In this document: in pieces, positions 1 through 10,802 of the stretch
How the letters are laid out: each line of letters begins with the position of its first letter
Position numbering within the stretch: position 1 is the first letter of the stretch
Assembly: GCA_030832095.1 (NCBI GenBank)
Contig: JAURJT010000035.1
Span: 62,001 to 126,000, forward strand
Direction: 5' to 3'
DNA length: 64,000 bases
Source of the DNA: Gammaproteobacteria bacterium
Lineage (GTDB): Bacteria; Pseudomonadota; Gammaproteobacteria; Burkholderiales; Burkholderiaceae_B
Notes under the pieces: model-generated
The model's input: the letters and a program-made list of their open reading frames with translations, nothing else
Database searches by the model: none
What the model was told of the DNA's origin: nothing
Made by a program: the position numbers and the translations under genes

Positions 1-305
1 AGCTCTTGGATATGGCCTTGGCGCTAGTACTAAAGCCCAAAGTGCTTTTGCTAGACGAACCCGTGGCTGGCATGGGCCCTGAAGAACGAGAGCAAATGAT
101 CGAGACCGTTTATGGTCTTTGGAAAAAAGGTGGATTAACTGTCGTGCTGATCGAGCATGACATGGAGATCGTCTTTAGGGTCTCGCAACATATCCACGTT
201 TTATCGTACGGCAAGCTCTTGGCTGAGGGTAGCCCAGAGCAAATCCGAAACAATCCGGCCGTCATTGAGGCCTACTTGGGTAAACCCCGCGAGGAGCACG
301 CATGA
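1..305 (+). CDS. Branched-chain amino-acid type ABC transporter ATP-binding protein, LivG-like (3' part)
   Basis: Only the last ~100 codons are in the window; the frame is open from base 3 and the start lies upstream. The visible part has the Walker B segment LLLDEPVAGMGPEE, with the AGM/GPEE signature usual for LivG subunits, and the switch histidine in VLIEHDME. It would power uptake of branched-chain amino acids or related amides and acids at the cytoplasmic face of the inner membrane. The stop overlaps the next ATP-binding gene as ATGA, so the two are co-transcribed and translationally coupled. The transported substrate cannot be told from an ATPase fragment. Confidence 0.88.
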   Translation, partial: LLDMALALVLKPKVLLLDEPVAGMGPEEREQMIETVYGLWKKGGLTVVLIEHDMEIVFRVSQHIHVLSYGKLLAEGSPEQIRNNPAVIEAYLGKPREEHA

Positions 306-1015
306 GCGACCACGTGCTAAAGGTGCAAGACATTGATGTCTTTTATGGCACTAGTCAGGCATTGTTCAACTTATCGTTTGAAGTCAACCGAGGCGAGACC
401 TTGGCGTTGCTTGGTCGAAACGGCGCTGGCAAAAGCACCACCATGAAGACCATCGCTGGTGTGAATCCTACAAAAAGGGGTAGCGTCGAGTTGTACGGCA
501 AGGTCATCACCGGGCGCTCTGCACATTTAATTGCCCGTGCAGGCATTGGTTATGTGCCAGAAGACCGACAGATATTTCCAGATCTCAGCGTCGACGACAA
601 TCTCACTATCGCCATCAAAAAAGGGGCGAAGGGTGAAGACGACTGGAGCCTTGAGCGCGTGTATGACACGCTGCCGCTCTTAGCCCCTCTCAAAGACCGA
701 ATGGGCGGGCAATTATCTGGCGGCGAACAACAAATGCTGACTGTCGGCCGCGCGCTGATGGGAAACCCCGATGTGTTGCTACTCGACGAGCCCAGCGAAG
801 GCCTGGCCCCCATCATGGTGCAAAAGATTGGTGACTTGATCGCCACCTTGCACAAGCTAGGCAAAACGATTGTCTTGGCCGAGCAAAACCTACACTTTTG
901 TCTGGGGCTAGCCGACCGGGCCGTGGTGATCGACAAAGGTACGGATGTCTTTTGCGGAACCATCCACGAGCTCAACGATAACGCCGATATCAAACAACGT
1001 TATCTGTCGGTTTAA
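302..1015 (+). CDS. Branched-chain amino-acid type ABC transporter ATP-binding protein, LivF-like
   Basis: Complete ATPase of 237 residues, the usual LivF length. Walker A GRNGAGKSTTMKT lies near residue 40, the ABC signature LSGGEQQML near 138, and Walker B LLLDEPSEGLAP near 158; the AEQN switch follows. LivF and LivG form the ATPase heterodimer of HAAT-family importers. The start is supported by GAGGAG six bases upstream, inside the end of the LivG-like gene. Permeases and binding protein are presumably upstream, outside the window. The SDR gene that follows 17 bp later may belong to the same transcript, suggesting a catabolic transport cluster, but the substrate is unknown. Confidence 0.9.
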   Translation: MSDHVLKVQDIDVFYGTSQALFNLSFEVNRGETLALLGRNGAGKSTTMKTIAGVNPTKRGSVELYGKVITGRSAHLIARAGIGYVPEDRQIFPDLSVDDNLTIAIKKGAKGEDDWSLERVYDTLPLLAPLKDRMGGQLSGGEQQMLTVGRALMGNPDVLLLDEPSEGLAPIMVQKIGDLIATLHKLGKTIVLAEQNLHFCLGLADRAVVIDKGTDVFCGTIHELNDNADIKQRYLSV

Positions 1016-1032: not shown

Positions 1033-1788
1033 ATGCATCTTTCAAAAATGAACGCGTCACAAGCTTTTGACATGACAGGTACCCACTTGTGGATTACAGG
1101 AGCTGCTGGCGGCATCGGTAGTGCCACTGCCCGGCTGTGCAGCCAGCTTGGCGCCTCGTTGGTCTTGACGGATATCGGCCCCCTCGCCAAGCTCGAAGCG
1201 CTGGCACACACGCTCAAGGGTTCAGTCGCTGTCGAGACTTGCGACGTCACGCAACGCGACGCGGTTGAAAGTTTGGTGCATCGGCACAAGCCGTTTACCG
1301 CGTTGGCTGACACCGCAGGTATCTGCCCCTTTGAAGACGACTGGATGGCGCCAGACTGGAACGAAGCTGCTTTTATGCGCGTGATGCAGGTCAACGTCTT
1401 AGGCCCAATTAATCTTGTGCGTGCGGTGTTACCTGGCATGATGGAACGCAAGCACGGGCGTATCGCGCTCTGCGGCTCGATTGCAGGCTGGACAGGCGGC
1501 TTACGTGCCGGCCCGCATTACAGCGCCTCTAAGGGCGGCGTTCACGCTCTGGTGCGCTGGTTTGCGCAACGTGCAGCACCTCATCATGTGTGCGTGAACG
1601 GTGTGGCACCTGGGCCGATTGATACGGGCATGACCACGGGTCAAGGCTACAACGGCAGCGAGTACCCCATGCAACGGATGGGCGAACCCGAAGAGATCGC
1701 AAGCATGTTGACTTACCTGTGCTCACCCGCAGCAAGCTTTGTGTCGGGCGCCATCATGGATGTCAACGGCGGCACACAAATGCGCTAA
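1033..1788 (+). CDS. SDR-family NAD(P)-dependent oxidoreductase
   Basis: Classical short-chain dehydrogenase of 251 residues. The cofactor-binding glycine motif is TGAAGGIG near residue 22, the structural Asn is in MQVNVLG, the catalytic Ser in CGSIAGW, and the YxxxK pair in YSASKGG; the C-terminus ends in the common DVNGGTQMR. Such enzymes reduce or oxidise carbonyl/hydroxyl groups of small metabolites; FabG-like annotation is possible but the sequence does not define a substrate. It follows the LivF-like gene by 17 bp with a purine-rich AGGGG before the ATG, so it is probably the last gene of the transport operon. Confidence 0.85.
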   Translation: MHLSKMNASQAFDMTGTHLWITGAAGGIGSATARLCSQLGASLVLTDIGPLAKLEALAHTLKGSVAVETCDVTQRDAVESLVHRHKPFTALADTAGICPFEDDWMAPDWNEAAFMRVMQVNVLGPINLVRAVLPGMMERKHGRIALCGSIAGWTGGLRAGPHYSASKGGVHALVRWFAQRAAPHHVCVNGVAPGPIDTGMTTGQGYNGSEYPMQRMGEPEEIASMLTYLCSPAASFVSGAIMDVNGGTQMR

Positions 1789-2002: not shown

Positions 2003-2833
2003 ATGTACGACATTTTTCAGACCGATCGTTTAATCGATCTTTGGCTGACCGAAGATATCGGCTCTTGTGATCTAACCGCACAACTCATGATTGATGAAGA
2101 TGCCGTCGGCACATTTCATATGAACGCCCGCGAGCCAATGTACATTGCCGGTATCGATGTCGCCGCACGAATTTTTACCCGTTACGATGCCACGCTCAGC
2201 GTCACCAAACTCGCCAAAGACGGCGATAAGGTTGAAAAAGGCACCAGAATTTTGACCGTATCTGGCCCCGCTCGCAGCATTGTGACTGCCGAACGCCCTG
2301 CTCTGAATATTTTGCAACGCCTATGTGGCATCGCGACTGAAACCGCCCGCTACAACGCTGAGATCGCTGGTACAGGTGCACGCTTAATCGACACCCGTAA
2401 AACCACACCAGGGCTGCGCATGCTTGAAAAGCACGCAGTTGCCTGCGGTGGTGGCCTGAATCATCGCTTAGGTTTGGATAACGGCGTCATGCTCAAAGAC
2501 AACCACATTGCGGTGGCGGGCAGTATCGGCAAAGCTGTGGCGCGCGCCAAACTCAAGTTGCCTATTCTGACCAAGATTGAAGTCGAATGCGACCGCTTTG
2601 AACAAGTTGAAGAGTCTTTAGCGGCTGGTGCCGATGTCATCATGCTCGATAACATGTCGATTGCCGACATGACTACGGCAGTTAAGTTTGTTGCAGGCCG
2701 AGCAAAAATTGAAGCCTCGGGTGGTATCAGCATCGCGACGATTCGTAACGTGGCACTGACTGGCGTGGATTACATCTCAACCAGCAAAATCACTCAAGCT
2801 GCACCTGCAGTTGATATCGGCTTAGACGAATAA
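2003..2833 (+). CDS. nadC: Nicotinate-nucleotide diphosphorylase (carboxylating), quinolinate phosphoribosyltransferase
   Basis: Converts quinolinate and PRPP to nicotinate mononucleotide, CO2 and PPi in de novo NAD synthesis in the cytosol. The 276-residue length is normal for NadC. The hallmark active-site stretch RKTTPGLRMLEKHAV, followed by GGGLNHRLGL and KDNHI, starts near residue 133; IEVEC and the phosphate-binding EASGGI segment follow. GAGG ten bases upstream supports the ATG. nadA and nadB are not adjacent. Downstream, 11 bp away, is a gene fusion with a PRPP-forming kinase domain, which would supply NadC's co-substrate. An inverted repeat upstream may be its operator. Confidence 0.96.
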   Translation: MYDIFQTDRLIDLWLTEDIGSCDLTAQLMIDEDAVGTFHMNAREPMYIAGIDVAARIFTRYDATLSVTKLAKDGDKVEKGTRILTVSGPARSIVTAERPALNILQRLCGIATETARYNAEIAGTGARLIDTRKTTPGLRMLEKHAVACGGGLNHRLGLDNGVMLKDNHIAVAGSIGKAVARAKLKLPILTKIEVECDRFEQVEESLAAGADVIMLDNMSIADMTTAVKFVAGRAKIEASGGISIATIRNVALTGVDYISTSKITQAAPAVDIGLDE

Positions 2834-2844
2834 GCAGGCGTTGC

Positions 2845-4620
2845 ATGGCAAGCGGCAACTTCTTTTTTGTTGTCGGCCCCAGTGGGGCTGGCAAAGATAG
2901 CCTGATTGATGGGGCGCGGCAGCAGCTCGACCCCGCTCAGTTCATTTTTGCCAAACGCACCATCACACGACCAGCGGACTCGGGTGGTGAAGCCCACCAA
3001 ACATGCACGCAGCCTGAGTTCGCCCAGCTTGAACGGGAAGGTAAGTTTTTAATCACCTGGCAAGCACATAACCTCTCGTATGGTCTGCCAAGCGTTCTGC
3101 TTGATGCCCTAGCTACAGGGCAACACATCATTGCAAATGGCTCGCGCGCAATGGTGGCTGAGCTCAACGCACGCGTCCCACATTTAGTCGTAGTTGAAAT
3201 CGGCGCACCGACTGAGATTCTGGCGCAGCGACTCGCGCAGCGTGGCCGTGAATCTGCGGGTGATGTTGCTAAACGCTTGGCTCGCAAAACTGAGCCTTAT
3301 CCTGAAGGCACACGCGTACTGCGCGTCACCAACGACCAAACGCCTGCGATCGGTGTGAGCCGCTTTTTAGCGGCGCTCTTTACACAGCTCGGGCAAACTC
3401 CTGCACCTCTGGCTTCGTTGTATAAAAAAATTGCAGGGTTTGCGCTCAGTGAAACAGAATACCGGCCCCTGCTAGCCTCGATTCACCAAAAGAAGTTTTC
3501 TGGAGCCGAGCTCGAAGCCTTTTTAATTGCCTGCACAGAGTTTTTATCAGACGATGAACTCATCGCGATGGCGCGTTGCCGTAGCGAACTCATGCCTCGC
3601 ATTTCTTGGGGCCGTGACATGGTGGTCGATAAGCATTCGCTTGGCGGCATACCTGGCAGTCGTGTCACGATGGTGGTGATTCCGATTGTGGCGGCACACG
3701 GGTTACTCATCCCCAAAACATCATCGCGTGCCATCACCTCGGCGGCTGGCAGCGCCGATGCAATGGAGGTTCTTGCAAAAGTCGACCTAACCCCTGAGCA
3801 ACTTAAACAGTGTGTGGCGCAGACCAATGCCTGCATCGCCTGGAACGGCAAGCTAAATCATTCGGTCATTGATGACGTGATGAATGCGATCACTCGCCCC
3901 TTGGCACTTGATACACGACGCTGGTCGGTAGCTTCGATTTTGTCAAAGAAATATTCAGCTGGCGCGACGCACGTTGTGATTGATATTCCGTATTCAAGTG
4001 GTGGCAAGGTCAAAACTCTACCTGCGGCAGAAGAACTTGCTAGACTCTTTGAAATGGTGGGTGCGGCCTTAGGACTCGTCGTCAAGGCGTTTGCGACAGA
4101 TGGCCACGCACCGATCGGACGTGGGATCGGCCCCGCGCTCGAGGCGCGCGATGTGTTGCAGGTGCTTGACCGCGACCCGCTAGCGCCTAGCGATTTACTA
4201 GAGAAGTCACTGTTTTTTGCTAGCCAGATCCTAGCACTTGACCCAGCGGTCGGCAGCGTTGCCAACGGCCGGGCCCGCGCACTCGAACTGCTGAACAGTG
4301 GTGCTGCAAGCACCACCATGCAAGCAATCATTGCAGCTCAAGGTGCTCAGCCACGACTCGCTTGGTCAGGCGTGCTGAAACACGAAGTTCGTGCACAATA
4401 CAGTGGTCGCGTACAGGCCATTGATGGTTTTGTCATTTCAGGGCTTGGGCGTTGCGCCGGTGCCCCTGCAGACCAACTCGCTGGCGTTGATCTGGCGTGT
4501 GGTTTGGATGCAGAAGTCAGTGCCGGAGATTTACTCTATGTCTTGCAAGCGAGTGATCAAGAAAAACTCGCGCAAGCGGTTGCGCTTGCGCAGAGTGACT
4601 GCGGCTACCGTCTGAGCTGA
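2845..4620 (+). CDS. Fusion: ribose 1,5-bisphosphokinase (PhnN) + thymidine/AMP phosphorylase-like domain
   Basis: A 591-residue two-domain protein. Residues ~1-182 are a full PhnN kinase: P-loop GPSGAGKDSL (11-20), ITRPA, WQAHNLSYG, NGSR and AQRLAQRGRE, all typical of the enzyme that phosphorylates ribose 1,5-bisphosphate (R15P) to PRPP. Residues ~193-591 are a pyrimidine-nucleoside-phosphorylase fold with VDKHSLGGIPGSR (261-273) and KTSSRAITSAAGSADAMEV (291-309). These forms match the archaeal AMP/NMP phosphorylase branch rather than E. coli DeoA, and NMP phosphorylases release R15P. The phosphorylase lacks the N-terminal domain of archaeal homologues; PhnN stands in its place. Inference: NMP + Pi gives base + R15P, then R15P + ATP gives PRPP, in one polypeptide. 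It sits 11 bp after nadC, a PRPP user. No phosphonate genes are nearby. Residue S303 stands where Thr is usual in the family signature. Confidence 0.87.
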   Translation: MASGNFFFVVGPSGAGKDSLIDGARQQLDPAQFIFAKRTITRPADSGGEAHQTCTQPEFAQLEREGKFLITWQAHNLSYGLPSVLLDALATGQHIIANGSRAMVAELNARVPHLVVVEIGAPTEILAQRLAQRGRESAGDVAKRLARKTEPYPEGTRVLRVTNDQTPAIGVSRFLAALFTQLGQTPAPLASLYKKIAGFALSETEYRPLLASIHQKKFSGAELEAFLIACTEFLSDDELIAMARCRSELMPRISWGRDMVVDKHSLGGIPGSRVTMVVIPIVAAHGLLIPKTSSRAITSAAGSADAMEVLAKVDLTPEQLKQCVAQTNACIAWNGKLNHSVIDDVMNAITRPLALDTRRWSVASILSKKYSAGATHVVIDIPYSSGGKVKTLPAAEELARLFEMVGAALGLVVKAFATDGHAPIGRGIGPALEARDVLQVLDRDPLAPSDLLEKSLFFASQILALDPAVGSVANGRARALELLNSGAASTTMQAIIAAQGAQPRLAWSGVLKHEVRAQYSGRVQAIDGFVISGLGRCAGAPADQLAGVDLACGLDAEVSAGDLLYVLQASDQEKLAQAVALAQSDCGYRLS

Positions 4621-4699: not shown

Positions 4700-6370
4700 T
4701 TACTCGCCAAATCCCTTAGACACAATCACTTCAACCAAATTCGGCACACCACTGGCCATTGCGGCCTTCAGCACCGCCGATAAGTGCGCTGGGTCTGTCA
4801 CGGTTTGCGATGACATCCCCATGTTTTTTGCTAAGCCTGCAAAATCGATCGGTGGATCATTCATATCCATTGCAACGAACGCATCGGTGCCGCGCATCGC
4901 AAGTAGTCGTTCTTTAATAATGCGATAGCTACGATTATTGATGATGACGTAAGTGATCGGCAAGCGTAGGTGCGCAGCGGTCCAGAGCGACTGGATACTG
5001 TACATGGCGCTACCGTCACCAATAGTGGCCACAATCGGGCGACCCGGTTGCGCCAGGCTCACACCCACAGCACCTGCCATGCCAAACCCCAAACCGCCAC
5101 TCGCCAGGCCGTAATACGCCTTAGGATTATCCATCGGTAGTGTCGCAGCAATCGCTGGCGAGGCCGTCAGGGTTTCATCCACAACGATTGCATCTTTAGG
5201 CAAAACAGCCACCAATTGACTCACCAAATAACGCTGATCAATGGGGTTCGCTGTTGCTGCGGCTGAAAACTCTGCGTGCGCTTTGTCACGCTTGGCTGAC
5301 CAGTTATTGGCGCTCAAGGCTTTCACGCGTGCGCTTGCTGCCTTCGCGTAGTCGGCGCTGCGCGCTGCGCGCAACACCGGCAGCAACGCCAGTAATGTTT
5401 CTTTGACATCTGCACGTACGGCAGTTTCTGTTGAATAGTTTTTACCGAGTTCCCACTCGCGCTCGGTGATGTGCATCACTGGCATTTCAGGCGGCAAGGG
5501 CTCGACCGTGCTCATGGGCGACATGCGCAGCAGATCGGCGCCGAGGCACAACAAGAAGTCGTACTGCTCAAGAATCGAACGTACTTTTTTCTGGTTGCGC
5601 GACAAATCACCCATACAAGTTGGGTGCGAGGTTGGATAACGCGCGTTATAACCAACAGACTCTTGGTACACGGCAGCACCGAGCAACTCAGCAAGTTCGC
5701 AAGCCTCGTTAAAAATACCGGCGTTTGCGATTTCACGACCCGCAACAATCACAGGATTTTTTGCAGCTAGCAAACGTTCGGCCAGCGCCTTGAGCGAGGC
5801 ATCGCCCGGACGCACCGCTGCGTCAATCACCGTTGGGAAACCAAATTCAATTTCGGTTTCTTCGTCGAGCACCGAGCCTGGCAAACTAATAAACACCGGG
5901 CCCATCGGCGGCGTGCGAGCAATCTTGGCAGCGCGACGCACAATACGCGGCAAGTCTTCAAGTCGGGTCACTTCAAAGGCCCACTTCACCAACGGCGCGA
6001 CCATCGGCACCAGCGGTTCGTACAACAAAGGCTCTTGCAGACCATAGCCCACTTCATACTGACCCGCCGTAATGATGATGGGCGAGCCCGAGAACTTAGC
6101 CGAATAGATCGCCCCCATCGCGTGACCCAAGCCCGGCGCGCAATGCAAGTTACAGGCAACGAGTTTTTGTGATGCGCGCGCAAAGCCATCTGCCATCCCA
6201 ACCACAATCGACTCTTGCAACCCCAACACATACTTCAACTCAGGAAACTGTGGCACCGCCTCCATGATGGCAAGCTCGGTTGTCCCGGGGTTGCCAAACA
6301 TATGGGTGACGCCCTCATCGAGCAACAATTTGATGAAGGCCTGACGACCAGTAAGTTTTTGCATTGCCAT
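4700..6370 (-). CDS. ThDP-dependent enzyme, benzoylformate-decarboxylase-like
   Basis: 556 residues with the three-domain layout of ThDP decarboxylases. The N-terminal Pyr domain has GNPGTTE and the catalytic Glu in LQES, and NLHCAPGLGHAMG near residue 76 resembles the His70 region of benzoylformate decarboxylase (MdlC). The C-terminal PP domain has the ThDP motif GDGSAMYSIQSLW ending in INN. The position of the second MdlC catalytic histidine (RYH in the Pseudomonas enzyme) reads RMS here, so the substrate or reaction may differ. It is the last gene of a minus-strand series after a tricarboxylate-type transporter and a hydroxyacid dehydrogenase. Likely role: cytosolic decarboxylation of a 2-oxo acid. 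The start could also be the ATG two codons later. Confidence 0.82.
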   Translation of the reverse strand: MAMQKLTGRQAFIKLLLDEGVTHMFGNPGTTELAIMEAVPQFPELKYVLGLQESIVVGMADGFARASQKLVACNLHCAPGLGHAMGAIYSAKFSGSPIIITAGQYEVGYGLQEPLLYEPLVPMVAPLVKWAFEVTRLEDLPRIVRRAAKIARTPPMGPVFISLPGSVLDEETEIEFGFPTVIDAAVRPGDASLKALAERLLAAKNPVIVAGREIANAGIFNEACELAELLGAAVYQESVGYNARYPTSHPTCMGDLSRNQKKVRSILEQYDFLLCLGADLLRMSPMSTVEPLPPEMPVMHITEREWELGKNYSTETAVRADVKETLLALLPVLRAARSADYAKAASARVKALSANNWSAKRDKAHAEFSAAATANPIDQRYLVSQLVAVLPKDAIVVDETLTASPAIAATLPMDNPKAYYGLASGGLGFGMAGAVGVSLAQPGRPIVATIGDGSAMYSIQSLWTAAHLRLPITYVIINNRSYRIIKERLLAMRGTDAFVAMDMNDPPIDFAGLAKNMGMSSQTVTDPAHLSAVLKAAMASGVPNLVEVIVSKGFGE

Positions 6371-6524
6371 GGATCAATCTCTGTCTGTGTGGGTTGAAAA
6401 CTTAAAGCGCTTTTGCAGGGCAGGCGTTCGAAGAAAGTATCGAAGCGCCGACGCTGTCAATTTAGATTTAACGATCACCAGCAACCAGCGCGACTGGGCG
6501 CTAGATACTGGGTACAGTATGAAC

Positions 6525-7532
6525 TTACGGCTTTAAACGACCCGTTTGAATATAAAAATCGCGCTCTTTCATCGCTGCGGCTTGAATGTCAGCTGCAATA
6601 TTGGTCGACTTAGCAAAACTGGCATCCGAATAGGCCCCTAAGCGTCGAAACTCAGCCATCATCTCAGGATTTTGCAAGGCGGTTTGAATCATTGCCGACA
6701 AGTATGCCTTGCGGTCTGCAGGAGTGCCTTTAGGCACCACCGCAAAACGCATAATGTTCCAGACGAATTGCTTCGTACCAAAGATCTCGTTAAACGTCGG
6801 AACGTCTTTCATGTTGAAGACACGCTCTGCGCTTGCAACCGCGATCGGCACCAATTGCTTGGCCTGTAAGTAACTTTCAAATTCGCCGTAAAAGCCTTGC
6901 GCGACATCAACGTTACCGCCAATCAAGGCGACGATTCCAGGCTTACCGCCCTGAAACGGTACGCGTAAGAATTTGGCCCCAGTCTGTGCTTCGAGCTGAT
7001 CCAAGAGGTATTCCCACATCGACCCTGGCACCACTGCCGCGCGCACTGTACCTGGTTTATCTTTTGCAGCCTGAAGGATTTCTTTGGCAGTCTTGCCCTT
7101 AAAAGGGCCCTCTGTACCAGCCACCCAAGCTAAAGCGTCGCTATTAATGTAGGCAATTGACTCAACATCGGCGAGCGACCATTTGCCGGGCGCACGCAAA
7201 ATCGCATCGCCCCAGAAATTACTCGCTAAGATCCCAACCGTATAGCCGTCAGGCTTTGCCTGGGTTGCCAGATACGAGTGCCCAACCATGCCAGCACCGC
7301 CAGCACGGTTATTGACCAAGACCTTGTCGCCGCTCGCTTTTTCAACAAACTTCGCCAAGATACGTGCAGTCAAATCCATGCCACCGCCAGCCGGATACAC
7401 CACGGTGTATTCGATCGGCTGATCCGGAAATCCTTTGGGCTTGAGTTTTGCCAGCGCCGGATCCGTTTGTGCGAAGGCACCAAAACTAAGTGCTGCCAGT
7501 AGGCCAGCGAGTACTGTTGAGATCGTTTTCAT
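6525..7532 (-). CDS. Tripartite tricarboxylate transporter substrate-binding protein (Bug family)
   Basis: Periplasmic receptor of a TctC/Bug-type TTT transporter, 335 residues. A Sec signal peptide covers the first ~21 residues (hydrophobic VLAGLLAALSFGAFA, then a cleavage site before QTD). The mature part has the Bug hallmark PIEYTVVYPAGGGMDLTAR and the VNNRAGGAG segment near residue 78. The start ATG abuts the TAA of the permease gene, with GGAG inside the permease end, so translation is coupled. It delivers a carboxylate to the TctA/TctB membrane pair encoded just upstream; the ligand is probably the acid handled by the flanking dehydrogenase and ThDP enzyme. Confidence 0.92.
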   Translation of the reverse strand: MKTISTVLAGLLAALSFGAFAQTDPALAKLKPKGFPDQPIEYTVVYPAGGGMDLTARILAKFVEKASGDKVLVNNRAGGAGMVGHSYLATQAKPDGYTVGILASNFWGDAILRAPGKWSLADVESIAYINSDALAWVAGTEGPFKGKTAKEILQAAKDKPGTVRAAVVPGSMWEYLLDQLEAQTGAKFLRVPFQGGKPGIVALIGGNVDVAQGFYGEFESYLQAKQLVPIAVASAERVFNMKDVPTFNEIFGTKQFVWNIMRFAVVPKGTPADRKAYLSAMIQTALQNPEMMAEFRRLGAYSDASFAKSTNIAADIQAAAMKERDFYIQTGRLKP

Positions 7533-9032
7533 TTATAAGTCTCCGTGAGGTTGTTTCGACTTGCGTTTCAAAAATACCAAGGCGGCCAAAATTAAGCTGC
7601 CAACAATCAACACCGCCGCGATCGGTCGGTGGGCAAAAATCATCAAACCATCGGGCGACATCACCATTGACTGCCGCAACGATTGCTCGAGCATCGGCGC
7701 CAGCACAAAGGCGATTAAGAACGGCGAAAACTCGTATTGCAGCTTGCGTAAAACATAGCCCACAATTCCGAAGCCAATCATCACCCACAAATCAAAGATA
7801 TTTTTGTTGGCCGAATAGGTGCCCACAATCGACAACAACAAAATCAACGGAAACAACACCCGATAAGGGATGCGCAGACACTGCACCCACAAACCCACCA
7901 ACGGTAAGTTTAGTAGCAACAAGAATACATTGCCAACGTACAGGCTGGCGACTACGCCCCAAAACAAGTCAGGGCGTTGCGTAATAAACATGGGGCCCGG
8001 CTGCACGCCTTGCATCACCAAGGCGCCCAGCAATAAGGCTGTGACGGCATTGCCGGGGATGCCCAGCGTAAACAGGGGAATCATGCCGCCCGACACGGCA
8101 GCGTTGTTGGCCGCTTCGGGGCCCGCCACGCCTTCGATTGCCCCCTTGCCAAAACGCTCGGGGTCTTTTGCGATTCGGCGCTCAAGCGTATACGACACAA
8201 ACGAGGCAGTCACGGGCCCGCCACCTGGCACGAGCCCCAGAAAAAATCCTAAGAAACTACCTCGCATCATGGGTTTCCACGAGGCCTTCCAGTCGGCGAA
8301 CGTAGGCCAAAGGCCTTTAATTTTTTCAGCGAGCATCTGATTTTTTACGATCGTTTCGCAATTCATCAGGATTTCAGATACGCCGTATAAACCGATCACC
8401 ACAGACAAAATCTCAATGCCTGCAGACAGATTGACCGTGCCCAGGGTAAAGCGATCTTGCCCGTTCACGATATCCATGCCAACAATTGCGGCCAAAAACC
8501 CGAGCGCAATCATCAACACGCCTTTGAGTGTTGAGCCACCAATCATATAAAGCGTACACACCAGGCCCAACACCATCAACGCAAAATTTTCAGGTGGGCC
8601 AAATTTAAGCGCAACGGAGGCCAGCAAGGGCGAAAAAAATGTCAGGGCCACCAAAGATAAGGTACCAGCCACAAACGAGCTAATCGCGGCCATCCCCAGG
8701 GCTGCGCCGGCTCGACCTTGCTTGGCCATCGCGTGCCCATCTAAGGCCGTTACCACTGAAGCCGCCTCGCCCGGGATATTCACCAAAATCGAGGTGGTCG
8801 AGCCGCCGTACATCGCGCCATAAAAAATGGCGGCAAGCATACCGAGCCCTGCAACGGCAGATAACTGAAACGTGACCGGAAGCAACAAGGCCAAGGCGGC
8901 CAACGGGCCAATTCCGGGCAAAACGCCGACGAGTGTGCCCACAATGCTACCCAGCAAGCAGAAATAAAGATTTTCGGCAGTAAACAACACCGAAAACCCC
9001 ATCATCAAGCCATTGATCGCGTCCATCACCAC
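7533..9032 (-). CDS. Tripartite tricarboxylate transporter large permease, TctA family
   Basis: 499 residues, the standard size of the 12-TM TctA subunit. The family motif GVLPGIGPLAALALLLP is near residue 39 and its repeat GLVPGGGPVTASF near 263; the first half also carries YGGSTTSILVNIPGE, a typical TctA loop. The protein is almost entirely hydrophobic. It overlaps the TctB-like gene by 7 bp upstream and touches the receptor gene downstream, so all three subunits come from one message. With TctB and the Bug receptor it imports a carboxylate by secondary transport across the inner membrane. Confidence 0.95.
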   Translation of the reverse strand: MVMDAINGLMMGFSVLFTAENLYFCLLGSIVGTLVGVLPGIGPLAALALLLPVTFQLSAVAGLGMLAAIFYGAMYGGSTTSILVNIPGEAASVVTALDGHAMAKQGRAGAALGMAAISSFVAGTLSLVALTFFSPLLASVALKFGPPENFALMVLGLVCTLYMIGGSTLKGVLMIALGFLAAIVGMDIVNGQDRFTLGTVNLSAGIEILSVVIGLYGVSEILMNCETIVKNQMLAEKIKGLWPTFADWKASWKPMMRGSFLGFFLGLVPGGGPVTASFVSYTLERRIAKDPERFGKGAIEGVAGPEAANNAAVSGGMIPLFTLGIPGNAVTALLLGALVMQGVQPGPMFITQRPDLFWGVVASLYVGNVFLLLLNLPLVGLWVQCLRIPYRVLFPLILLLSIVGTYSANKNIFDLWVMIGFGIVGYVLRKLQYEFSPFLIAFVLAPMLEQSLRQSMVMSPDGLMIFAHRPIAAVLIVGSLILAALVFLKRKSKQPHGDL

Positions 9033-9469
9033 CCCCAGGGGCCGCGCGGCAAATTCATGCCTAGCAAACGCCCAAACACCAGCATAACGACCGCAACCGA
9101 AACCACGGTAATGATCAACGACTCAACCAGACGCGAACGCTCTACGGTTTGCAATAAAACAAAGGTGGTCAGCGCGCTTGCCACCGCAAAACCTAGATAA
9201 GGTAGGGTAGCTGCCATGGCGATCAGCCCTGCGACGACGCCCAAGATTCGACCAAGCGCCGCTGCGCGCGGCCAGTCTGGCTTGAGCACAGCCTCTTTTG
9301 ATCCTTTGAACAGCAAGCCCAGCCCGCACACCGTGATCAAGGCGCCACAGATAAACGGAAAGAAACCGCTTTCAGGCCCGAACGATCCGGTTAATCCGAG
9401 TGACCAAGAGTTAACCATGGTGGCCAGACCGAGCAGACACCACAACACATTTAAAATGCGCTCAAACAT
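9026..9469 (-). CDS. Tripartite tricarboxylate transporter small permease, TctB family
   Basis: Small membrane subunit of the TTT system with about four predicted membrane segments (residues ~4-20, 30-47, 68-88 and 103-130 by eye). The family feature SLGLTGSFGPESGFFPF lies at the first periplasmic loop. I start it at the ATG opening MFERILN (147 residues); a longer frame from a TTG ten codons earlier is less likely because GGTGG precedes this ATG. The end overlaps tctA by 7 bp. Sequence conservation in TctB proteins is low, so the call rests on topology, loop motif and operon position together. Confidence 0.85.
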   Translation of the reverse strand: MFERILNVLWCLLGLATMVNSWSLGLTGSFGPESGFFPFICGALITVCGLGLLFKGSKEAVLKPDWPRAAALGRILGVVAGLIAMAATLPYLGFAVASALTTFVLLQTVERSRLVESLIITVVSVAVVMLVFGRLLGMNLPRGPWGW

Positions 9470-9559
9470 CTGCGGTACCACCCGACATCTTGTCCCCAAA
9501 ATTATTGTGTAATACGCCAGCTTTTTATGCGCTGGCTTGTATAACGCTGGCGATGCCGT

Positions 9560-10636
9560 TTACATACCCGCTAGCTTCTTAAACGTTGCGCCATCGAGGC
9601 CGAGTTTACTGCAAGCTGCAACCATTTCTTGCCAAGTATTGTCGTCCACCGGCACGCCGTTGGCCAGGCGCTCAGCGCGGGTCTGGCGCTCTGGTTCACC
9701 GGCGATACGCACACCATCGGTACCGGTTTGGGCAGGCGAGGCCTTGACCCACTCAATAAAAGCTTTCATTTCATGTTCAAAGACCGAGCCGTCTGACAGT
9801 TTTTTTGGATCAAAAATAATCGTCAACATGCCGTTCAGCACCCGGCGCTTGCCGTCGCCCTGATCATGAGTTGTCATGCCTGCAGCAAGCGCACCACCAA
9901 GCAACTCACAGACGAGCGCTAAGCCGAAACCCTTGTGCTGGCCAAAGGTGCATAACGCGCCTGAAGGGGGTTTCACCGCATAAACCGGATCAGTGGTTGG
10001 ATTGCCCTGATCATCGATCAAGTAACCCGCGGGCAACTGTTCGCCTTTGTTATAGGCGACGCGCGCCTTACCCTGCGCAATCACACTGGTCGCAAAATCG
10101 AGCAATACGGGCGGCTGACCCGCAACTGGGATCCCAACACAAAAGGGGTTTGTCCCGAAGCGCGCGTCAGCGCCACTCGAGGGCGCGACGATCGGGCGCG
10201 AAATCACGTTCACGAAGTGCACCGAAATCAGATTTTCGGCTACGGCCATTTCGGCCCAGGCACCAATGCGGCACAAATGGTGCGAATTGCCCAAGGCCAC
10301 AATGCAGCTGCCGTGCTGCTTGGCGCGCGCGATCCCCAGCTCCATCGCTTCATGGCCAATCACCTGGCCAAAACCAGCCTGCCCGTCGACGCTGACCATC
10401 GCGCCACCATCCATCCGGCTCACGATGTGTGCGTTTGGTTTTAAGCCACCCTCAAGATACGCCTCGGTGTAGCGCGGCAACATGCCAACGCCATGCGAAT
10501 CGTGCCCAGTCAAGTTGGCTTGCACCAGATTTTCGGTTACCAGTTCGATTTCTTTGGGTTCGCTGCCGAAACCTTTGACCAGGTACCTGACGGCCTCGCG
10601 CAGGCGGTCAACGGGGATGCGGTGGATTTGGGTCAT
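9560..10636 (-). CDS. Malate/L-lactate dehydrogenase family (Ldh2-type) oxidoreductase
   Basis: 358 residues from the ATG opening MTQIHRIP, which has AAAGGAAA 5-12 bases upstream; the 16 codons before it have no family similarity. It carries the Ldh2 marks GHDSHGVGMLPRY near residue 41, GNSHHLCRIG, and the nucleotide-binding loop with LLDFATSV. The family is NAD(P)H-dependent and oxidises 2-hydroxy acids (malate, lactate, ureidoglycolate, sulfolactate) to 2-oxo acids. It is the first gene of the series that continues with tctB, tctA, the Bug receptor and the ThDP enzyme, so it most likely converts the imported hydroxy acid to the 2-oxo acid that the ThDP enzyme then uses. The exact substrate is unknown. 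Confidence 0.88.
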   Translation of the reverse strand: MTQIHRIPVDRLREAVRYLVKGFGSEPKEIELVTENLVQANLTGHDSHGVGMLPRYTEAYLEGGLKPNAHIVSRMDGGAMVSVDGQAGFGQVIGHEAMELGIARAKQHGSCIVALGNSHHLCRIGAWAEMAVAENLISVHFVNVISRPIVAPSSGADARFGTNPFCVGIPVAGQPPVLLDFATSVIAQGKARVAYNKGEQLPAGYLIDDQGNPTTDPVYAVKPPSGALCTFGQHKGFGLALVCELLGGALAAGMTTHDQGDGKRRVLNGMLTIIFDPKKLSDGSVFEHEMKAFIEWVKASPAQTGTDGVRIAGEPERQTRAERLANGVPVDDNTWQEMVAACSKLGLDGATFKKLAGM

Positions 10637-10802
10637 GAGGGTTTCCTTTGGGGTGTCGTTGCGCTTGCAGCGATTATTGTTCAATGAGGCGCCTGAGAGG
10701 CTCAGGTCCTGCTTAGCGCAATCATACCCAAGTCTTTGAACAAAGCTTTGCTAGATTTAGGCTGACTGACGGGGCAGAGGAACAATATCATCCGTTTAAG
10801 GC

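Follow-up and report, generated by a model that had tools for sequence, protein, structure and literature searches.

We describe a gene at positions 2845..4620 (+ strand) of a 64,000-nucleotide stretch of a Burkholderiales genome (contig JAURJT010000035.1 of assembly GCA_030832095.1; hereafter, the window). The gene encodes a PhnN-type kinase fused to a phosphorylase, and at most of the loci where we found this fusion, it lies downstream of nadC. We propose that NadC (quinolinate phosphoribosyltransferase) and the fusion protein form a previously undescribed cycle that uses phosphoribosyl pyrophosphate (PRPP) as a handle to decarboxylate quinolinate to nicotinate, which would feed nicotinate catabolism. 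We give this proposal about an even chance of being correct. The genome context, namely the linkage to nadC, is our main result: both the architecture of the fusion and its linkage can be read directly from the genomes.

In the first step of the proposed cycle, NadC would convert quinolinate and PRPP to nicotinate mononucleotide (NaMN), CO2, and pyrophosphate. The phosphorylase half of the fusion protein would then cleave NaMN with phosphate to give nicotinate and ribose 1,5-bisphosphate, and the PhnN half would use ATP to convert ribose 1,5-bisphosphate to PRPP, releasing ADP. The cycle would close because NaMN is a nucleoside monophosphate (NMP) and because the product of PhnN, PRPP, is the co-substrate of NadC. 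The net reaction would be quinolinate + ATP + phosphate → nicotinate + CO2 + ADP + pyrophosphate, with 1:1:1 stoichiometry and at a cost of one ATP, and the phosphoribosyl group would serve as a reusable handle. Nicotinate would then be catabolized, plausibly via 6-hydroxynicotinate reductase and enamidase in half of the genomes that we tested. The enzyme families are all known; what is new is their arrangement, along with the proposed activity and pathway. We consider this cycle to be the best explanation for the fusion forming one clade, its linkage to nadC, the 6-hydroxynicotinate reductase (Hnr) genes at some loci and transporters at many, and the retained functional residues of NadC.

The open reading frame begins with ATG and encodes 591 amino acids without internal stops. 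Residues 4–177 (2854..3375) match TIGR02322, the equivalog model for PhnN (ribose 1,5-bisphosphate kinase), with 178 bits (the cutoff is 156 bits), and the PhnN halves of four relatives score 166.1–185.6 bits. This domain includes the P-loop GPSGAGKD (residues 11–18; 2875..2898). The phosphorylase domain (residues 185–587; 3397..4605) lacks the N-terminal domain of AMP phosphorylases. It includes, as seen in the translation and the alignment, DKHSLGGIPGSR (residues 262–273; 3628..3663), which we take to be the phosphate-binding region, and KTSSRAITSAAG (residues 291–302; 3715..3750), which is presumably the nucleotide-binding region. The match to the phosphorylase subfamily NF003338/PRK04350 spans residues 7–586 and scores 524.2 bits (above the cutoff of 434); the match of residues 184–584 to the AMP_phos equivalog TIGR03327 scores 358.6 bits, which is under the cutoff of 535. 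By sequence, the protein is most similar among solved structures to chains 4ga5 and 4ga4 of AMP phosphorylase, which are titled "putative thymidine phosphorylase" in the PDB; residues 185–584 of the fusion align to 84–486 of the chain. An AlphaFold2 model of the fusion protein (mean pLDDT 89.4, pTM 0.75) also matched 4ga4 in Foldseek (TM score of 0.92 by target length, rmsd 2.2), as well as 4ga5, and guanylate kinase 2an9 matched the kinase half lower in the list. A complete PhnN domain joined to an archaeal-type phosphorylase had been proposed from the sequence alone, with modeling against AMP phosphorylase suggested as a check; TIGR02322, PRK04350, the 4ga5/4ga4 matches, and Foldseek all bear this out. 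Judging from these matches, the protein joins a PhnN-type kinase, with predicted ribose 1,5-bisphosphate kinase activity, to a phosphorylase from the archaeal AMP-phosphorylase branch.

The fusion is not an assembly join, because it recurs at 42 further loci. The 43 distinct loci, including the window, are in alpha- and betaproteobacteria. A homolog search identified 76 loci, of which 23 contain the fusion (L003–L025). A search across the Burkholderiales, which the sequence-only reading had recommended, found the fusion in 3 of 399 genomes, two besides the window's. Samples from two other orders found it in 2 of 390 genomes (the order of genome G404; one new locus) and in 14 of 397 genomes (the order of G403; 13 new loci). 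In the Burkholderiales sample, G158 and G356 have partial matches to the phosphorylase, and we scored them as not fused. Among plasmids, three records contain the fusion with at least 80% query coverage.

At 34 of the 43 loci (33 that we compared, and the window), nadC is 5' of the fusion and on the same strand. The nadC of the window (2003..2833, + strand; identified with TIGR00078) ends 11 bp before the fusion. The gap is at most 60 bp at 25 of the 33 nadC-linked loci that we compared, and the other 8 are Cupriavidus-group loci where nadC is about 1 kb from the fusion, with a MarR-type gene between them (the nadC frame of L021 is partial). No nadC is visible at nine loci: the contigs of L003, L010, and L024 begin at the fusion, and the other six loci belong to a clade that is associated with petABC, the cytochrome bc1 genes.

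As a control, we used 55 loci that encode unfused relatives of the phosphorylase, some of which are on short contigs. These were compared to 33 of the 43 fusion loci; we left out nine near-copies of L008 and L012, as well as the window. nadC is nearby at 26 of 33 fused loci and at none of the unfused loci (P = 3e-16, one-sided Fisher exact test). Conversely, a homolog of PRPP synthetase is near none of the 33 fusions and 49 of the 55 unfused genes (P = 2e-18, same test). Neither P value is corrected for kinship. The unfused genes at these 49 loci (among L026–L078, L161, and L162) encode proteins of the PRK04350 "thymidine phosphorylase family" and have a PRK07199 (Prs-like) gene nearby. They belong to the same branch as the fused phosphorylases and their neighbor is also involved in PRPP metabolism, but they are not fused and are never near nadC. 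The unfused phosphorylase and the Prs-like protein may form another NMP/PRPP system.

The phosphorylase domains of the fusion proteins form a single clade, with support of 100/100 in a tree with 19 fused sequences and again in a tree with 33 (from which 14 unfused sequences were removed beforehand). In the first tree, the stem of this clade has 1.22 changes per column, compared to a median of 0.34 for the end branches; in the second tree, it has about 0.6 (0.42 plus 0.2 across the root). The simplest reading is a single fusion event followed by faster change. In the tree with 33 fused sequences, both of the two main subclades are linked to nadC, and the petABC-associated clade lies inside one of them. 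Because the petABC-linked fusions are nested within an otherwise nadC-linked subclade, the linkage to nadC is probably ancestral for the fusion.

The protein encoded upstream of the fusion scores 309.4 bits against TIGR00078, well above the cutoff of 198.4. We also considered that it might be ModD, and rejected this because its score for that family (111.9 bits) is below the cutoff of 178.85. Eight residues that we take to form the quinolinate and PRPP site of NadC (R98, R132, K133, H154, R155, K165, E195, and D216) are all conserved in 21 of 21 sequences. The second NadC of the Cupriavidus group and of genome G119 is distinct, with 41–45% identity to the window's NadC. The TIGR00078 score and the conserved site bear on the idea that the pair runs the same cycle on a different substrate, with the phosphorylase acting on another N-ribosyl phosphate and NadC on a related pyridine acid. 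Several classes of transporters adjoin the pair, and other plasmids have NadC homologs next to genes for Rieske oxygenase and transporters, as might be expected if substrates vary. We nevertheless think a different substrate is very unlikely, given the equivalog-level score and the intact site of NadC. Also, where catabolic genes are adjacent to the fusion, they are for nicotinate, which quinolinate would yield directly.

Those plasmid-borne NadC homologs are at L176:6637-9229 and L177:3367-8801, in Sphingobium and Thalassospira, amid genes for Rieske oxygenase, Gfo/Idh/MocA, and transporter proteins. Their context suggests that other relatives of NadC have catabolic roles. At L175:14998-28451, in Paracoccus zhejiangensis, a 60% identical NadC is encoded just before a cobalamin biosynthesis cluster, with no fusion in the annotated 31 kb.

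The link to nicotinate catabolism comes from Hnr and enamidase, which are used in nicotinate catabolism of the type found in Eubacterium barkeri. Hnr is encoded in the fetched flanks of 5 of the 33 fusion loci (L138, L140, L194, L226, and L232) and of none of the 55 unfused loci (Fisher exact test, P = 0.006), and this linkage requires four changes on the tree. At L226 and L232, Hnr is divergent from nadC and starts 0.3–0.4 kb away. Only L138 and L140 have an intact enamidase gene in their flanks. At L138 (genome G317), one side of the fusion has genes for a xanthine-dehydrogenase-type hydroxylase (its 2Fe-2S subunit), two AA_synth proteins, a UPF0280 protein, Hnr, and a TetR-type protein. Also on that side are genes for an enamidase-like amidohydrolase (its best match in the PDB is enamidase, 2vun, with E = 3e-109), EtfBA, and an FRG-domain protein. 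The other side encodes a TAXI-TRAP transporter together with an AOR-type protein. AA_synth and enamidase fragments lie beside the fusion at L230:10998-12944 and look like the decayed remains of a nicotinate cluster.

We also searched for related genes at the genome level in 14 of the 26 fusion genomes that were then known. The window's genome (G000) is 94% complete; several of the others are assembled bins whose completeness is not stated, so the absences given below are provisional. Hnr is present in 7 of the 14 genomes, the same seven that have just one nadC. Across the Burkholderiales sample, Hnr is found in 30 of 399 genomes, two of which are fusion genomes. In G000, Hnr is on contig C94 (73%) in a cluster with genes for a 2Fe-2S subunit, a LIV transporter, AA_synth, UPF0280, ferredoxin-NADP-reductase-like, TetR-like, and enamidase-like proteins. 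Some of these genes were identified by eye; an amidohydrolase that reads as enamidase adjoins Hnr (L152). Genes for Hnr and enamidase-like proteins, as used in the E. barkeri-type route, are thus found either close to the fusion or at another place in its genome. That route begins at nicotinate; the proposed cycle would add a front end from quinolinate to nicotinate.

Genes for uptake adjoin the pair at many loci. A TctC protein is encoded next to it at 10 of 33 loci (in the Cupriavidus group and Variovorax), a TAXI-TRAP system at 10 of 33 loci, and an NMT1-type ABC protein at 2 of 33 loci (L022 and L160). In the passages of PMC11452294 that we drew on, the TctC proteins Bug27 and Bug69 bound quinolinate with submicromolar affinity. 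In the window's clade, the nadC-fusion pair comes after the genes of a LIV-type ABC transporter. Its final gene encodes a LivF-like ATP-binding protein (302..1015, + strand), the transporter starts upstream of the window, and the same gene order is seen at L008 and L012. This transporter is a possible uptake system for the pathway. Between it and nadC is a gene for an SDR oxidoreductase (1033..1788) on the same strand, whose membership in the system is uncertain.

The strongest alternative to the cycle is that the fusion supplies PRPP for NAD synthesis: PRPP derived from NMPs would be spent by NadC on imported quinolinate, giving NaMN and then NAD. This resembles the salvage of quinolinate in Bordetella, which, as described in parts of PMC11452294, also involves an orphan NadC without NadA and linked TctC proteins (Bug69 and Bug27). 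We found no match to NadA in G000, whose single nadC is the one in the window, so we rejected a role in de novo NAD synthesis for this gene. More broadly, NadA was found in 8 of the 14 genomes and not in the other 6, in which the fusion-linked nadC is the only nadC. An internal source of quinolinate, 3-hydroxyanthranilate dioxygenase, was rejected as well: it scored above the cutoff in just 2 of the 14 genomes, and not in G000. However, two nadC genes are present in 7 of the 14 genomes, and all 7 have NadA and the second nadC beside the fusion-linked pair. Because these genomes keep the pair even though they also have NadA and another nadC, NAD supply alone is not a sufficient explanation. Furthermore, PncB is found in 12 of the 14 fusion genomes; the demand for NAD should be small, so that ordinary PRPP synthetase ought to suffice; Hnr, a gene for the breakdown of nicotinate, is near the fusion at some loci; and at three positions, every one of the 33 fused phosphorylases differs from the enzyme for AMP, CMP, and UMP (see below). 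Overall, we consider it unlikely that PRPP for NAD is the main role of the fusion, although it may be so in G403, in which neither NadA nor PncB was found.

A role in NAD metabolism is also the published interpretation of these neighborhoods. Sorci and co-workers (2024; PMC11452294) noted that in Variovorax and Jezberella, bug27 has nadC and phnN as neighbors. The term "thymidine phosphorylase" does not appear in their text, and the passages at hand do not refer to the phosphorylase half or to nicotinate catabolism. In the open-licence literature, theirs was the sole paper we found that unites quinolinate, PhnN, and nadC, and we found none for phnN with thymidine phosphorylase or for the long name of the kinase. 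The sequence-only reading knew of no description of such a bifunctional enzyme. This holds insofar as we found no open-licence paper about the fusion, but the gene itself had already been seen, as "phnN", beside nadC. Two annotated records that we saw also name the fusion protein PhnN, which should be corrected.

If the quinolinate-to-nicotinate cycle operates, nicotinate mononucleotide phosphorylase would be a new activity, and NadC would have a role outside of NAD synthesis, in breakdown instead of cofactor synthesis. The cycle would convert quinolinate, which is derived from tryptophan, to nicotinate by a route that does not pass through NAD. It would also explain why bacteria with NadA and another nadC keep a second nadC and transport genes, and it would provide a function for some of the phnN genes that lie outside of C-P lyase operons.

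As for C-P lyase, the PhnN half of the fusion has the same kinase domain and the same predicted reaction as the PhnN ribose 1,5-bisphosphokinase (TIGR02322) of that pathway. It differs in being fused to a phosphorylase and in lying outside the C-P lyase (phn) operon, in a genome with no match to PhnJ. PhnJ was not found in 3 of the 14 fusion genomes, including G000; in the other 11, it is not on the contig of the fusion, except in G119 and G399, where at least 27 kb separate the two. Given the lack of a PhnJ match in G000 and the neighboring nadC and transporter genes, we rejected a role in phosphonate use for the window's fusion, and the nadC-fusion pair plays no role in it. The absence of phosphonate genes, which had been noted from the window's sequence, thus extends to PhnJ in a 94% complete genome and supports independence from C-P lyase.

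To consider what the phosphorylase half might act on, we compared its residues to those of the AMP (NMP) phosphorylase TK0352 from Thermococcus kodakarensis (Tk; 4ga4–4ga6) and of unfused relatives. The initial comparison included 19 fused and 30 unfused sequences, and a later one included 33 fused and 30 unfused sequences. We take G168, S194–S199, T203, S264, and K288 of the Tk enzyme to bind the nucleotide, and D256 to be the proton donor. The window's protein is identical at these positions (D256 is D356) except that T203 is replaced by S303; most fused sequences have threonine there. The two proteins share a fold as well as these nucleotide-site residues, and ribose 1,5-bisphosphate is the predicted product. 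Besides its score below the TIGR03327 cutoff, its missing N-terminal domain, and its fusion to PhnN, the window's protein differs from TK0352 in having N334, H339, and N347 in place of G, L, and I. These three lie in a segment (residues 334–348; 3844..3888, from the alignment) that presumably corresponds to the region beside the base in thymidine phosphorylases, so H339 and N347 may be near the base. R246, H339, and N347 are invariant in all 33 fused sequences and differ from both the Tk enzyme and the unfused relatives (M instead of R246 in 30 of 30; L instead of H339 and I instead of N347 in 29 of 30 each). Because these residues changed in all of the fused sequences, specificity for AMP, CMP, and UMP cannot simply be transferred to the fusion. 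We rejected H339 and N347 as a marker for the nadC partner since they are in every fused sequence, including those without nadC, and so are markers of the fusion itself. Only N334 differs in this respect: it is found in 2 of 6 sequences from the petABC-associated clade and in 27 of 27 of the other fused sequences.

Other observations weigh against the cycle. We infer all three activities, NaMN as a substrate, and the direction of flux. H339 and N347 are not proof of a nicotinate pocket, because they are also found in the clade without nadC, and the model of the fusion is weaker there (blocks 291–300 and 331–350). D356 is replaced in all six petABC-clade sequences and in some nadC-linked ones. 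The window's protein is missing the N-terminal domain of AMP phosphorylase (~84 amino acids), which is reportedly necessary for the activity of the T. kodakarensis enzyme. This domain is retained between the kinase and phosphorylase domains in many relatives, such as L022. The distance from the P-loop to D.HS.GG is 251 residues in the window's protein and 332–377 in the members with the domain. Short spacings (249–257 residues) are found in the window's clade, most of the Cupriavidus group, L139, and L160, with 276 in L015; the longer spacing is found in the other fusions, including L024, which is sister to the short Cupriavidus forms. The domain has probably disappeared on several occasions. 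Among the NadC proteins, the second nadC of a Herbaspirillum bin (L121 in G408), which we had labeled NadC1 beforehand, was placed in the fusion-linked clade of the NadC tree, and there is no fusion in its 20-kb surroundings (L195). PncB could return nicotinate to NaMN, and in G403, NadC may serve NAD synthesis.

The evidence for nicotinate catabolism also has weak points. The name Hnr comes from annotated plasmid relatives that are called 6-hydroxynicotinate reductase, and the protein had no match to a Pfam or NCBIfam model. Three of the five Hnr-linked loci have no enamidase in the flank. Hnr is found in 28 of 396 Burkholderiales genomes without the fusion, and on plasmids. The seven fusion genomes with Hnr are not independent, because four of them (G000, G405, G406, and G407) form one clade, and the nicotinate cluster of G000 is on a different contig than the fusion. 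The other 7 of the 14 genomes (the Cupriavidus group, Herbaspirillum, and G119) had no match to Hnr, with other nicotinate pathways not included in the search.

The six loci of the petABC-associated clade (L231, L233, L234, L235, L236, and L238) do not fit the cycle either: the fusion is directly downstream of petBC, with petA present as well except at L233, where the contig is cut, and no nadC is found in the fetched flanks. These loci are the best support for general nucleotide salvage, in which NMPs from RNA turnover would be converted to ribose 1,5-bisphosphate and then to PRPP for any phosphoribosyltransferase. According to the portions of PMC9700705 that we consulted, this branch of phosphorylases cleaves NMPs to the base and ribose 1,5-bisphosphate, and the T. 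kodakarensis enzyme accepts AMP, CMP, and UMP. An unfused phosphorylase at L027 is accompanied by a separate gene similar to the PhnN half and by a phosphoribosyltransferase-domain gene, which also fits with salvage. A one-protein route from NMPs via ribose 1,5-bisphosphate to PRPP was the central claim of the sequence-only reading, and the domain identities uphold its logic. Salvage is unlikely to be the main role, though, because the conserved partner, NadC, uses PRPP and makes NaMN, which is itself an NMP. Linkage to nadC in both main subclades of the fusion, with the petABC clade nested in one of them, argues against it too, as do the transporters and, at 5 of 33 loci, the nicotinate gene Hnr. 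Also, unfused relatives of the phosphorylase occur in the same orders as the fusion. For the petABC clade itself (6 of 43 loci), nucleotide salvage may apply.

In this stretch (L027:6318-9203), which includes the unfused phosphorylase, the separate kinase-like gene is divergent and 39% identical to the PhnN half; its only Pfam match is AAA_18, and the phosphoribosyltransferase-domain gene adjoins it.

An FRG-domain gene adjoins the nadC-fusion pair at four loci (L138:8972-9787, L139:14037-14840, L158:11484-12293, and L160:13861-14703). The copies from L139, L158, and L160 are 55–61% identical to the copy from L138, and L194 has a weaker match (31%). In the window, beyond the fusion, positions 4700-10684 (- strand) encode a benzoylformate-decarboxylase-like TPP enzyme, TctC/TctA/TctB-like transporter proteins, and a malate/lactate dehydrogenase-type protein. 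This gene set is conserved beside the pair in the window's clade where the contigs extend that far. At L007:8485-10155, the gene for the TPP enzyme is broken into two open reading frames in that assembled genome, unlike in its relatives.

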